From the NCBI RefSeq assembly GCF_001429605.1, contig NZ_LMSS01000004.1, positions 186,001 through 250,000 of the forward strand: DNA of 64,000 bases, in the 5' to 3' direction. A program made the position numbers and the translations under genes. The notes under the pieces were generated by a model, which made no database searches, had not been told where the DNA came from, and saw only the letters and a program-made list of their open reading frames with translations. Numbering within the stretch: position 1 is the stretch's first letter; each line of letters opens with the position of its first letter. This DNA is from Phycicoccus sp. Soil802. GTDB lineage: Bacteria > Actinomycetota > Actinomycetes > Actinomycetales > Dermatophilaceae. Positions 39,851 to 46,168 of the stretch are shown piece by piece.

Positions 39851-42538
39851 ATGGCATCTCTCACGTCCCGCACCCGCCGCACCATCGCCGCCGGCTGCGG
39901 CCTGGCCCTGGTCGTCGGCGGTGCCGCCGGCTTCCTCGGCCGGCACGAGCTGAACGAAGCCTGGCTGAAGTACCAGTGGCGGGACCGTCACTACAACGCC
40001 GCCGTCATGGAGAAGGCCCTGATGATCGCCGGGGGCAACCCGACGGAGGCCCAGAACGAGTCCAAGGAGGCGGTGACGATCGCCGAGCAGTTCGCCCAGG
40101 CGCGCACTGCCCCCGGCGTCGTCGCACCCGGCGCCTACGGGAACGCCTTCACCCAGATCCAGGGCCTGACCCACTCGGCCGGCACCTGGAAGGAGGTCAC
40201 CGGGGTCCCCTACAACGCCGACGACCCGCGCTACCGCGACTACTACTCCAACTCCTCCGGCGGGGCCGGCCACGTGACCGGCCGGATCACCGGCCTGGCG
40301 GCCGACAACGCCAACCACGTGTATGCCGCGGGAGCCGACGGCGGCGTCTGGCGCTCCTCCCAGGGTGGTGGCGCGTGGACGTCGATCGCCGACACCCTGC
40401 CCTCGCTGAGCGGTGGCGACCTCCAGCTGGCCGGCGACGGCTCGCTGTGGTTCGCGACCGGGGAGTCCAACACCGGAGCCACCTCGTTCGTGGGGGCCGG
40501 GGTCTACCGGCTCGGTAGCCCGACGTCCGCCGCGTTCGCCCCGACCGACCGGGTCGGCGGCAAGGAGCTGGAGTCGACCACCATCGGCCGGATCCGGTTC
40601 GGTGGCGGCTCGACCGTGTTCGCCGCGACCAACCGCGGCATCTGGTACCACGCGGCCGGGAGCAAGGCCGGCGCGTGGACGTTCGGCTTCGCGCCCAACC
40701 CCAGCTGGATGCCCGAGATCAAGGACGACGCCGGCAACGTCCTCGTCCCGGCGGGGTCGAACTGGGGAGGCAACACCGCCTCGGGACCCACCGACGCGGC
40801 ATACAAGAACATCGTCAACGACATCGCGGTCGACCCGAAGAACCCCAAGCACGTCGTGGCAGCCATCGGCTGGCGGTCCGGCGACGCCTACAACGGGTTC
40901 TACGAGACCAACGACTTCACCACCGGGCCGTCCGGCTGGCACAAGCTGTCGGTGACCCTCGGCAGCATCACCAACACCTCCGACGTGGGGTACACGACGT
41001 TCGCGTTCAGCAAGACCGGTGACCGGCTGTACGCCTTGGTGCAGCAGCCCAGCAAGATCAGCGGCTCCTCGTCGCTGGCGGGGATCTTCGTGTCGAAGAC
41101 CGGCTCGCCCAAGGGACCGTGGAACAAGATCGCCGACGCCGCGCAGCTGCACAACAGCGGCTCGGCGCTGGACCGCAAGGGCTACGGCGTCGGCGTGCAG
41201 GCCTGGTACAACCAGTTCCTCACCGTCGACCCCGCCAACCGCGACCACGTGTGGGCCGGTCTGGAGGAGGTCTTCGAGACCAAGGACGCCGGCAGCCACT
41301 GGTCCGCGGTGTCGCCGTACTGGAACTTCTACTTCCCTTGCTGGAACATCGCGGACTCCAAGAACACCTGCCCGCTGGCCGGTCACCCCGACCAGCACTC
41401 GGTGGCCGTCGGCACCCGCAACGGCACTCCAGTGGTGTTCTTCGGCAACGACGGCGGCGTCTACCGTCGTCCGGTCAACGGCCAGGTGAACGCCAACGGG
41501 AACGCCACCGACCTCGAGTCGACCTCGACCGACGGCACCCTCGACGCGCTGCAGTACTACTCGGTCTCCGTCGGCACGGAGACCGCCGGCAGCGGGGTCG
41601 TCGTCTCCGGCGGTCTGCAGGACAACGGCACGTCGAACCTGCGGAAGGTCGCGCCGAACGGCACGAACGGCGACACGGAGATGGGATCGGGCTTCGGCGG
41701 CGACGGTGGCGACAGTGCCGCCGACCCGCGCCAGGGCTGCAACCAGCTGCAGGAGTACGTCTACCTCGCCGTGAAGGTCACCAACAACTGCGCCACGAAC
41801 CCCGGCGCGCTGAGCGAGGCCACGGCGACCAGCTGGTCGCTGGACCCCGGTGACCCCAACCCACGGTTCATCGCCCCGGTCGGGCTCGACGGTGCCGACC
41901 CGGACACCGCGATCTTCGGCGGCCAGTTCGTCTACACGGTCCCGAAGGTGTGGGCCGCCCGCGACGCCTCGGCGGTGAAGAAGGTCTTCGACCTCGGCGC
42001 CGGGCACTCGGCCACGGCGGTCTCGATGCAGGACGGCACCGCATACGTGTCCTGGTGCGGACCCTGCAACAACACCGGATTCACCCGTGGTATCGCCACC
42101 AACGCCGGCGGGACGTGGCACCAGCTCACGCTGGCGTCCACCTTCCCCAACCGGTTCGTCCAGGGCCTGACCATCGACCCGGCCAACACCCAGCACGCGT
42201 ATGCCGCCATCAACGGCTTCTCGCGCAGGTTCACCGAGGGCCCGGGGGCCGGCGTCGGTCACCTCTACGAGACGACCGACGGTGGAGCCACCTGGACCGA
42301 CACGAGCGGCAACCTGCCGGACGTGCCCGCGAGCACGGTGAAGCAGCTGGCCAACGGTGGGGTCGTCCTCGGCACCGACCTGGCCACCTTCTACCGGGCC
42401 AAGGGTGCGACCACGTGGCAGGTGCTCGGCACCGGCCTGCCGCTCACGGTGGTGATGGACCTCGAGTCCGCGCCGGACGGCAACCTCTACGCGGCGACAC
42501 ACGGTCGGGGCATCTGGAGCATCCCGGCGCCGCAGTAG
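39851..42538 (+). CDS. Large secreted sialidase/BNR-type beta-propeller protein
   Basis: An 895-residue protein. A basic start ([10 protein letters not shown]) and hydrophobic stretch (residues 12-32) form a signal peptide or anchor. The body is built of propeller blades marked by Asp-box-like turns: [29 protein letters not shown]-type [19 protein letters not shown] and [15 protein letters not shown]. Such VPS10/BNR-repeat proteins include glycoside hydrolases and binding proteins; the catalytic residues of sialidase are not evident, so activity is uncertain. ATG 39851 follows GGAGGAGACC. It is probably the sole gene of its unit, under the inverted repeat at 39754. Confidence 0.8.
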
Positions 42539-42621: not shown

Positions 42622-43845
42622 ATGGCGCGCGTGATCGATCAGCTGTGGGAATGGATTGCCGTCGCCGTCGGGCTCCTCGTCATCCTCGGAGGGGTGCTGC
42701 TCGGACTCGTTCGGGGCCGCGGAGGCCGCCCGAAGTCCGCGCCGTCACCGACGACACCGACGCGCGACCGCGACGTCCTGCCCGGTGTGGGCGACGACGC
42801 GGAACCGCCCCGGGACGCCCCGAAGCGGTCCATCGAGGACGCCGGCTCGGTCGACACCCTCCCCACCCCGGTCGACGAGGCACTGCCCTCGCCCGCGCCG
42901 ACCCCGACGCTGGACCGCCCCGACGCGCCGGCTGGTCGCCTGCAGCGGCTCCGGGCCCGCCTGGCGCGGTCGAACACCGCCCTCGGGCAGGGCCTGCTCG
43001 CCCTGCTGTCGCGGGGCCGGCTCGACGAGGAGGCCTGGGAGGAGGTCGAGGACACCCTCATCGCGTCCGACCTCGGCGTCGAGGCCAGCACCGAGCTCGT
43101 CGAGTCGCTGCGCGCCCGCGTGAAGGTCGAGGGCACGACCGACGAGGCGACCGTCCGCGGCTGGCTCCGGGAGGACCTGCTGCGACTCGTCGACCCCACC
43201 CTCGACCGCACCGTCGTCAGCTCCCGCGTCGACGGGCGCCCGGCGGTGGTCATGGTCGTCGGCGTCAACGGCACCGGCAAGACCACGACCGTCGGCAAGC
43301 TGGCCCGCGTGCTCGTCGCCGAGGAGAAGGACGTCGTGCTCGGCGCTGCCGACACCTTCCGGGCCGCTGCCGCCGACCAGCTGGAGACCTGGGGTGCCCG
43401 CGTCGGCGTGCCCACCGTGCGCTCCGACCGGGACGGCGCCGACCCGGCAGCCGTCGCGTTCGACGCCGTCAAGGCGGCTGCCGAGCTCGAGGCCGATGTC
43501 GTGCTCATCGACACCGCGGGCCGGCTGCACAACAAGGTCGGCCTGATGGACGAGCTGCGCAAGGTCAAGCGCGTCATCGAGAAGCAGAGCCCGATCGACG
43601 AGGTGCTGCTGGTCCTCGACGCCACGACCGGCCAGAACGGCCTGCGGCAGGCGGAGGTCTTCGCCGAGGTCGTCGACGTCACCGGCATCGTGCTCACGAA
43701 GCTCGACGGCACGGCCAAGGGCGGCATCGTGGTCTCCGTCCAGCGCAAGCTCGGGGTGCCGGTCAAGCTGGTGGGCCTGGGCGAGGGGCCGGACGACCTC
43801 GCGCCGTTCGACCCCGAGGCCTTCGTCGACGCGCTCCTTGCCTGA
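42622..43845 (+). CDS. ftsY: Signal recognition particle receptor FtsY
   Basis: FtsY (407 residues) docks the SRP-ribosome complex at the membrane. Unlike many bacterial FtsY proteins it starts with a true membrane helix ([21 protein letters not shown]), as is common in actinobacteria, then an acidic-proline linker (residues 35-100). The NG domain follows: Walker [11 protein letters not shown] near 214, [25 protein letters not shown], and [11 protein letters not shown] with [15 protein letters not shown]. Its partner Ffh is at 54343 in this window. The next gene starts inside its last codons. Confidence 0.95.
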
Positions 43846-44896
43846 GCTTCGCCTGCTCGTGACCGCCGTGCTCGCCGCTGCGGCGGTGGGTATGCCGTGT
43901 GCCGCCGCCCCGGCGGTCGCGGCCGAGCAGCCGCGCGTGGACTTCCGGTTCGAGGACGCCCGGATCAGCGAGTCGTCCGGGCTGGCCCTGAGCGTGCGCC
44001 ACGCTCACACGGTCTGGACCGTCAACGACTCCGGCGACTCCGCGAGGGTCTTCGCCGTCGACACCCGCACCGGCGCGACGGTCGGGGCGCACACCTTCGA
44101 CGCCCCGGTCCGGGACGTCGAGGCCCTTGCGGTCACGCCGCAAGCTCGGATGCTGGTCGCCGACATCGGTGACAACAGCGCATCCCGCACGGTCGTGCGG
44201 ATCTACTGGTTCGACGAGCCGGAGCTGGGGAAGACGTCCGGCTCACGTGGTGGACCGGCATCGTGGGAGCTGAGCTACCCGGACGGGCCGCACGACGCCG
44301 AGGCCCTCGCCGTCGACCCTCGGACCGGTCGCGTGCTCGTCGTCACCAAGGGTCGGCCGGGCGGCGTCTACGCCCTCCCGACCGCACCGAGCCGTCAGGG
44401 GGTGAACCGGCTGACCCGCGTGGGGCCGGCACCCTCGACCGCGACCGACGCCGTCTTCCTGCCCGATGGCTCCGCGCTGGCCGTCCGGACCTACACCTCG
44501 CTCCACCTGCTCGACCCCCGTACGTGGACCGAGCAGCTCACCACCCTGCTCCCGCTCCAGCCGCAAGGGGAGACCCTGGCCATCGCCCCGGGAGGGGCCG
44601 GCCTGCTGGTGGGCAGCGAGGGCAAGGACTCCCGCGTCCAGGAGATCGCCCTGCCGCAGCTGCCGAGCACCTCGACCGCCACCGCCACCCCGACGACCCC
44701 GTCGTCCGACCCGGCGGCCATTCCGTCGACGGTCCCGACCGGGCCAGCGGCCACTCGCCACTCCGGCACGGCCGGCGACGACGGCCTGCCGCTGATGGTG
44801 AACCGTGGGGAGCTGGTCGCCGGTCTGGCTGCGCTGGCCGGCCTGGTGCTGATCGCCTTCCTCGTCACCCGCGTCCCGAGGCGGCGCCGGCGATGA
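43838..44896 (+). CDS. Secreted, C-terminally anchored beta-propeller-like protein
   Basis: A 352-residue protein, starting at TTG 43838 ([15 protein letters not shown]), eight bases into the end of ftsY. It has a signal peptide (residues 1-29, ends AVAAEQ), a propeller-like body ([25 protein letters not shown] in part, then [20 protein letters not shown]), a Thr/Pro/Ser-rich linker and a C-terminal membrane helix ([19 protein letters not shown]) with basic tail RRRRR. This is a cell-surface layout. Related proteins are called esterase-like or SdiA-regulated-like; function is unknown. Confidence 0.78.
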
Positions 44897-45724: not shown

Positions 45725-46096
45725 TCAACGGGTCGCGCGGGCGCCTCGGATCGCGAGGTAGGCGACCCCGGCGAGGACCGTGGCGCCGGCGGCCACGAGC
45801 GGCATGCGCATCGCCGGCAGCTCACCACGGGACTGTGCGGAGCGCACGCTCCGCCCCGACTGCCACGAGAGGAGCGAAGAGCTCGACTGGCCCGACAGGA
45901 CCGACCCCGTGCTCTGGAACGACAGCGCCGAACCCATCGACATCGCCGACCCGACCGAGCCCAGCGAGGCGAACGAGCCGATGCTGGCGATGGACGCGAC
46001 CGAACCGATGCTGCCGACCGAGAGGATCGACCCCTCGGAGCCGATCGACAGGATCGAGCCGGGCGAGCGGATGGACCACAGCGAGCCGTCGGACAT
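45725..46096 (-). CDS. Ser-x-x triplet-repeat protein with C-terminal membrane anchor
   Basis: A 123-residue protein of a type I do not recognise by function. From residue 2 to residue 89 every third residue is serine: 30 triplets without one exception, for example SIGSEGSILSVGSIGSVA. The other positions favour Ile, Val, Leu, Gly and Ala. The serines are coded by TCG, TCC, AGC and TCT in mixture, so the pattern is held at protein level rather than by DNA slippage. Residues about 98-116 (LVAAGATVLAGVAYLAIRG) form one membrane helix with basic end. No signal peptide is present. It is divergent from a VOC gene. ATG 46096 is used. Confidence 0.8.
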   Translation of the reverse strand: MSDGSLWSIRSPGSILSIGSEGSILSVGSIGSVASIASIGSFASLGSVGSAMSMGSALSFQSTGSVLSGQSSSSLLSWQSGRSVRSAQSRGELPAMRMPLVAAGATVLAGVAYLAIRGARATR

Positions 46097-46168
46097 GCCG
46101 CCATCGTGCCACCGTCGGTCGCGGCTGTCGGGGTCGTGGCTGTCGGGGGTCGTGGCTAGCGTGGCGGG

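Follow-up and report, generated by a model that had tools for sequence, protein, structure and literature searches.

The locus

The window, by which we mean the whole 64-kb stretch of DNA that was analysed, carries on its minus strand a gene flanked by APH and VOC genes. Serine occupies residues 2, 5, 8 and so on to 89 of the encoded protein, which amounts to 30/30 triplets with zero exceptions, and the remaining triplet places are filled mostly by I/V/L/F/A and G/L/A/Q. A single hydrophobic helix lies C-terminal to the array at about residues 101-120. The original prediction of a strict S-x-x protein with one membrane-type helix is thereby confirmed, with the ORF assigned to the minus strand. 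The features of the gene are as follows.

45725..46096, minus strand: coding sequence of the Ser-x-x repeat protein, 123 aa (ATG 46096-46094, stop codon 45727-45725; supported by relatives and by sense-frame purifying selection in those relatives)
45824..46093, minus strand: S-x-x array, residues 2-91, 30 triplets in nine-residue units (sequence and repeat analysis)
45737..45796, minus strand: C-terminal hydrophobic helix, residues 101-120, candidate tail anchor (AlphaFold2, block pLDDT 61 and 71; hydropathy)
46103..46108, minus strand: CACGAT, a -10-like box of the leaderless type, last base at -7 from the start codon (YANNNT comparison across members)
46013..46076, minus strand: degenerate 27-nt (nine-codon) tandem repeat within the gene, 2.4 copies, 75% match (repeat scan)

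Across all six frames of the 64 kb, the second-longest S-x-x run spans 7 triplets; for residues other than serine, period-3 runs reach 13 at most (alanine). The array serines are encoded by TCG (20), TCC (6) and AGC (4; n=30). The mixture of serine codons originally described therefore holds for these three, whereas TCT, which had been listed with them, occurs once in the gene, at an extra serine outside the array phase. Two large neighbouring ORFs on the plus strand of the window (43838-44896 and 39854-42538) have no Pfam match at E ≤ 1e-5, and an FtsY-like (SRP54) gene and an ammonium transporter gene are also found near the repeat gene.

An unnamed family in the Actinomycetota

Searching with the single window protein gave matches at E ≤ 0.001 in 7/58 related genomes, a count that includes the window's own. 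Beyond its own genome, four of the 7 matched genomes contain clear relatives that are 48 to 57% identical across the matched part, and the rest contain low-complexity look-alikes. With a profile built from six relatives (A1), 115/394 genomes of the class matched at E ≤ 0.001 and 68/394, as counted from the rows and including the window's own, at E ≤ 1e-13. The weaker class matches (E > 1e-13) include simple repeats, and part of the weak profile matches is due to low-complexity proteins such as those at L006-L009 of one genome (G016), which are unrelated and carry SVASAASAG, SVGSLASVG or RSARSA triplets. Since the profile search reads through stop codons, the one or two stops found in the matched stretch of 13/68 strong class genomes may reflect either broken genes or a match that overruns the true end. 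Within the taxonomic family the same profile matched 49/186 genomes at E ≤ 0.001 and 30 at E ≤ 1e-15, 6 of the latter with an internal stop. A search of the phylum matched 13/296 genomes at E ≤ 1e-9, of which four lie outside the class; we read these four as three members and one gene that is probably broken or frameshifted.

At E ≤ 1e-10, a larger profile of 36 rows (A3) matched 37 of the 121 genomes searched in one genus. We infer that this genus is Streptomyces because one of its members matches two plasmids of Streptomyces, with 92 and 87% identity across 77-78% of the query; the annotation of one plasmid match is 'hypothetical protein' (WP_164369710.1). All 8 plasmid records with a match are from Streptomyces, although 6/8 cover only 23% of the query, and one named chromosomal match is Rhodococcus sp. 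SMB37. As the genome searches scored part of the candidates, the true prevalence may be higher. No relatives were found in four scans of viral contigs or in phage records.

The original prediction could name no family for this protein, and our database scans bear this out, with every result below cut-off. Among 36 members, Pfam gave nothing better than E 0.06 (the weakest lead being one member to LytB_SH3, E 0.061), NCBIfam gave HxsA4 alone, and 0/36 matched the anti-phage defence models of PADLOC at E ≤ 0.01; a PHROGs scan gave no match over cut-off. By title and opening of the abstract, none of the papers listed from the open-access collection that was searched deals with the family. The Ser-x-x proteins are a real, unnamed family of the Actinomycetota, scattered in soil bacteria such as Streptomyces.

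Within the genus of the window's genome the gene gives no match in 10/10 genus mates (11 genomes of the genus searched). One of these mates (G003) has the same APH-VOC order as the window and, between those two genes (locus L172, minus strand, about 1394-1438), a 14-codon stub that begins like the window gene and then stops. Judging from this stub sequence, the gene predates the split and decayed in G003, and is no fresh insertion in the window genome. The lack of a match in the genus mates, together with the stub in one of them, indicates that the gene is dispensable.

For comparative analysis we used a sample of 62 loci, comprising 60 loci from 59/96 other strong genomes, the Rhodococcus locus and the window, with the 59 genomes drawn mostly from the better matches of the class and family searches. 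Nine or more consecutive triplets were present at every one of the 62 loci, and all 62 were kept. The relatives thus retain the period-3 serine, the loss of which in homologues had been named as grounds for rejecting the original prediction.

Selection maintains the serine lattice at the protein level

In the in-phase core of 21 columns aligned across the 62 members, serine occupies 1274/1302 cells, the remainder being Cys (13), Ala (12), Gly (2) and Thr (1). Codons of both the TCN and the AGY type occur in 19/21 core serine columns, and in 15 chosen pairs of relatives the pooled pN/pS is 0.39 for the sense frame compared with 1.43, 0.57 and 1.88 for the antisense frames. This shows that selection acts on the protein in this family, as originally proposed. 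A DNA-level artefact, either a 9-nt periodic sequence or a misread antisense ORF, could draw on the degenerate 27-nt tandem repeat within the gene and on the antisense frames, which are likewise open across it. The frame and codon comparisons go against such a cause, which the original prediction had likewise listed as grounds for rejection, as does a -10-like box kept at a constant spacing from the start codon (see below), and we regard its probability as negligible.

Threonine can be reached from TCN by a single base change, the same as alanine, yet it appears in one core cell. This scarcity favours a tight steric site over a pure hydroxyl role at the serine positions. It also weighs against a platform for serial serine modification, in which an enzyme reading S-x-x would add a phosphate, sugar or acyl group. 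The 30 evenly spaced serines and their retention across TCN/AGY switches would suit such a platform, whereas the context of the serines is hydrophobic and uncharged and a crude neighbour comparison finds no common linked enzyme gene. We therefore consider this option, which the original prediction had offered, improbable, although it keeps a small share of our confidence.

The repeat unit is nine residues long

The triplets are not equivalent to one another. Leucine in the third place recurs at a lag of three triplets at 2.54 times expectation, while lags 1 and 2 are depleted (0.22 and 0.34). We counted residues at each position over the first three units of the 62 members, which gives 186 cells per position. 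The first serine position (S1) is Ser in 173 cells and Cys in 13, and within these three units Cys is confined to S1; S4 is Ser in 186/186 and S7 in 185/186. Position 2 is I/V/L/W in 186/186, position 3 is mainly Gly (125) or Ala (33), position 5 has the highest entropy, position 8 is mainly V/F/I/A, and position 9 is Leu in 174/186 and hydrophobic in 186/186. Position 6 is G/D/N in 174/186, of which D/N account for 42, whereas D/N occur in 1/186 cells at position 3. Because Gly is exchanged for Asp or Asn at position 6 and hardly ever at position 3, position 6 is likely to be a turn. The repeat unit is nine residues, S1-I2-G3-S4-x5-[GDN]6-S7-[VFI]8-L9, a superperiod that was absent from the original prediction, which also did not say on which DNA strand the ORF lies. 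The degenerate 27-nt tandem repeat within the window gene agrees with a unit of this length.

The nine-residue phase is also kept over the length of the array. Of 90 proteins examined, 89 have both an N-terminal and a C-terminal landmark, and in 82/89 the distance from the N landmark to the last C landmark is 19, 22 or 25 triplets (1 mod 3), with 7/89 off this spacing. Given that the C landmark comes back with every nine residues, and that the sequences share ancestry, the spacing shows a kept phase rather than the number of units or a set of independent events. A count by eye in about 15 members gives a core length of 21 or 24 triplets; the C-terminal half of the core is less regular and contains one phase shift. 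We count about 7-8 units per protein.

These observations bear on the original suggestion of a uniform three-fold helix that presents every serine on the same side. In such a bundle, polyproline-II-like or 3-10 helices would pack their serine faces on neighbours as glycine does in polyglycine-II proteins, and the strict period of three and the exclusively small main substitutes in the serine columns (Cys, Ala, Gly) would fit a tightly packed face. A superperiod of nine with G/D/N turn residues in one triplet in three is, on the other hand, unexpected for a uniform helix, and Pro makes up only ~0.3% of the second and third triplet places. The family also lacks the composition of polyglycine-II and collagen-like triplet proteins, as Gly makes up only 33% of the third place, 1.0% of the first and 1.2% of the second. 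We consider the helix bundle distinctly unlikely. The other geometry that had been put forward, serines at the corners of a solenoid, lies closer to the data, except that the unit is nine residues.

A C-terminal hydrophobic segment in about half of the members

A simple hydropathy threshold assigns a C-terminal hydrophobic segment to 33/62 members; one of these segments lies inside the repeat, leaving 32, and two more members are borderline. The 30/62 members that have no segment by this threshold retain the core. The claim that the protein is membrane-anchored is thus upheld as a prediction for the window protein and for 32/62 members in all, and does not extend to the segment-less members, which have the same core. 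In four of the loci (L010, L073, L079 and L096, from Rhodococcus and relatives) the proteins have no C-terminal segment, their ends share a short motif (CHCQT, HSQT or GHCQS), and the loci have neighbour genes in common with each other.

A single C-terminal segment and, by eye, the absence of a signal peptide are features of a tail anchor, and we predict that the segment serves as one. The mean charge of the flanks is +1.7 before and +2.5 after the segment (32 members), and the charge after the segment is higher than that before it in 19/32 and lower in 6/32. By the positive-inside rule, the higher charge after the segment would place the repeat outside the cytoplasm, which counts against the cytoplasmic reading given below. 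Basic tails are known also in tail-anchored proteins with a cytoplasmic N-terminus.

Promoter and gene neighbourhood

A YANNNT box ends at -7 or -8 from the start codon in 43/62 members, compared with a background mean of 2.3 over 21 upstream bins; 19/62 members have no such box at these positions. Start codons were picked independently of promoters, as the nearest upstream ATG or else GTG/TTG. The leaderless signal of actinobacteria is given in PMC3160421 as TANNNT ~12 nt upstream of the start codon, and the consensus and spacing seen here agree with that description. By its sequence the repeat gene carries this predicted signal, and it is probably transcribed as a leaderless mRNA. Other sigma-factor motifs were found in at most 1/62 members, and in the window region a generic scan for sigma-70 promoters and terminators gave no match.

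Regarding gene neighbourhood, we made a crude all-against-all comparison at the 62 loci using crude gene calls and found no common operon partner, as no neighbour cluster beyond the family itself exceeds 6/62 loci. The larger clusters come from relatives within one taxonomic family or contain generic proteins, which by eye are of the ABC type (6 loci) and the SDR type (5 loci). A DnaK-type gene lies near the repeat gene in two related loci and a DnaJ-type gene in a third (L110, L127 and L094, by eye). These chaperone-type neighbours at 3/62 loci may be due to chance, and a chaperone link would suit an aggregation-prone protein.

The lack of a common neighbour gene also bears on whether the protein is a precursor peptide processed by a maturase system, for example His-Xaa-Ser (Hxs). 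Weak matches to the NCBIfam model HxsA4 in 18/36 members (best E 1.6e-4) raise this reading, which we hold to be very improbable and largely refuted. Specifically, the window protein scores 18 bits against the HxsA4 cut-off of 55 and contains no His-Xaa-Ser, and the radical-SAM maturase HxsB is over cut-off in 0/16 member genomes, weak HxsB matches below cut-off being present in 11/16 member genomes and in 14/14 control genomes.

Structural models and the proposed fold

An AlphaFold2 run with two sequences gave a mean pLDDT of 41.6 and modelled just the C-terminal helix with zero strands. When residues 1-93 were modelled alone, the mean pLDDT was 43.9 and strands appeared at residues 7-11, 14-18 and 24-29, within the first 30 residues, each covering unit positions 9-1-2 with a block pLDDT of 51-54. 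Both models are poor and leave most of the array unmodelled. A PDB sequence search with the single protein returned adenovirus fibre (E 0.0038) and Tse5 (0.16), and a PDB profile search returned kinesin light chain fusions, PI3K regulatory subunit 5 and CDC27 (0.0019 to 0.081); none is a convincing relative. We rejected these matches, as two of the alignments are to GSTGST linkers and the remainder are presumed to be low-complexity.

The poor models are what would be expected if the protein had no fixed fold and acted as a membrane-active or sticky low-complexity polypeptide, its serine-rich segments inserting in or coating a membrane, or condensing. This would agree with the hydrophobic character of positions 2, 8 and 9 in nearly every cell and with the C-terminal segment in 32/62 members. 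Yet near-invariant S4 and S7 and a nine-residue phase that is kept point to a defined structure, and 30/62 members do without the segment by the threshold used, so that we rate this alternative as unlikely.

Our tentative preference, which we put somewhat short of an even chance, is a beta-solenoid or cross-beta stack that forms a self-assembling scaffold, anchored to the membrane in roughly half of the family. The turn and strand pattern in the alignment suggests the fold; matching strands are present in one model (pLDDT ~50) and none in the other. The near absence of Thr, which is frequent in beta-strands, counts against a beta fold. In the proposed structure residues 8-9-1-2 would form a short beta-strand with L9 and I2 facing one way, and S4-x5-[GDN]6-S7 would form a tight turn joining the [VFI]-L-S-I strands. 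Stacking of the units would then give a beta-solenoid or cross-beta array in which the serines align as ladders. Regarding function we can offer a guess, namely that the protein may self-assemble into a small scaffold or filament on the cytoplasmic side, with the C-terminal anchor tying roughly half of the members to the membrane and leaving the rest free. More specifically, the family could represent a new repeat fold with serine at every third residue, in which nine-residue units build three stacked serine ladders and a minimal, near charge-free filament exists either free or on the membrane; this we regard as possible, if doubtful.

The family is common (37/121 genomes of the genus inferred to be Streptomyces), strongly constrained and without a named family. 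If the serine lattice is a fold, its repeat grammar would be very simple and could aid both the understanding and the design of beta-solenoids or functional amyloids; with so many natural variants, a direct structural test is easy.

Comparison with known systems

Bactofilins are small beta-solenoid scaffolds that occur free or tied to the membrane. Their likeness to the Ser-x-x family is one of function by analogy alone; the 36 members have no bactofilin Pfam match and, to our knowledge, no serine lattice is known in bactofilins. HxsA4 (NF038313) shares serine at every third residue, but the triplets of the window protein contain no His and the protein is far below the curated cut-off.

ElaB and YqjD are tail-anchored bacterial proteins with a single C-terminal hydrophobic helix and a short basic tail. 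The segment-bearing members resemble them in both respects, while the remainder of the Ser-x-x protein is repeat and the segment-less members lack the helix by the threshold used.

The RTX beta-roll is built from a nonapeptide, GGxGxDxUx, which forms a calcium motif with one large aliphatic residue and a glycine/aspartate turn. The window protein contains no GGxGxDxUx and the 36 members have no RTX Pfam match at E ≤ 0.1; the family differs in having no GGxGxD and in carrying Ser at every third residue. The two nonetheless share a nine-residue unit that has one conserved large aliphatic position and turns at glycine/aspartate.

In the AlphaFold model of the bacterial ice nucleation protein presented in PMC9418140, inward serines at two positions form ladders that brace the sheets of a beta-solenoid. 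The 36 members have no such Pfam match and a superperiod of nine rather than 16 residues. The ice nucleation protein has a 16-residue unit, Thr and Tyr arrays and a very long repeat, whereas the Ser-x-x family has nine-residue units, about 7-8 of them, and almost no Thr. What the two would have in common is a repeat beta-solenoid with serine ladders, the arrangement that we propose for the Ser-x-x family.
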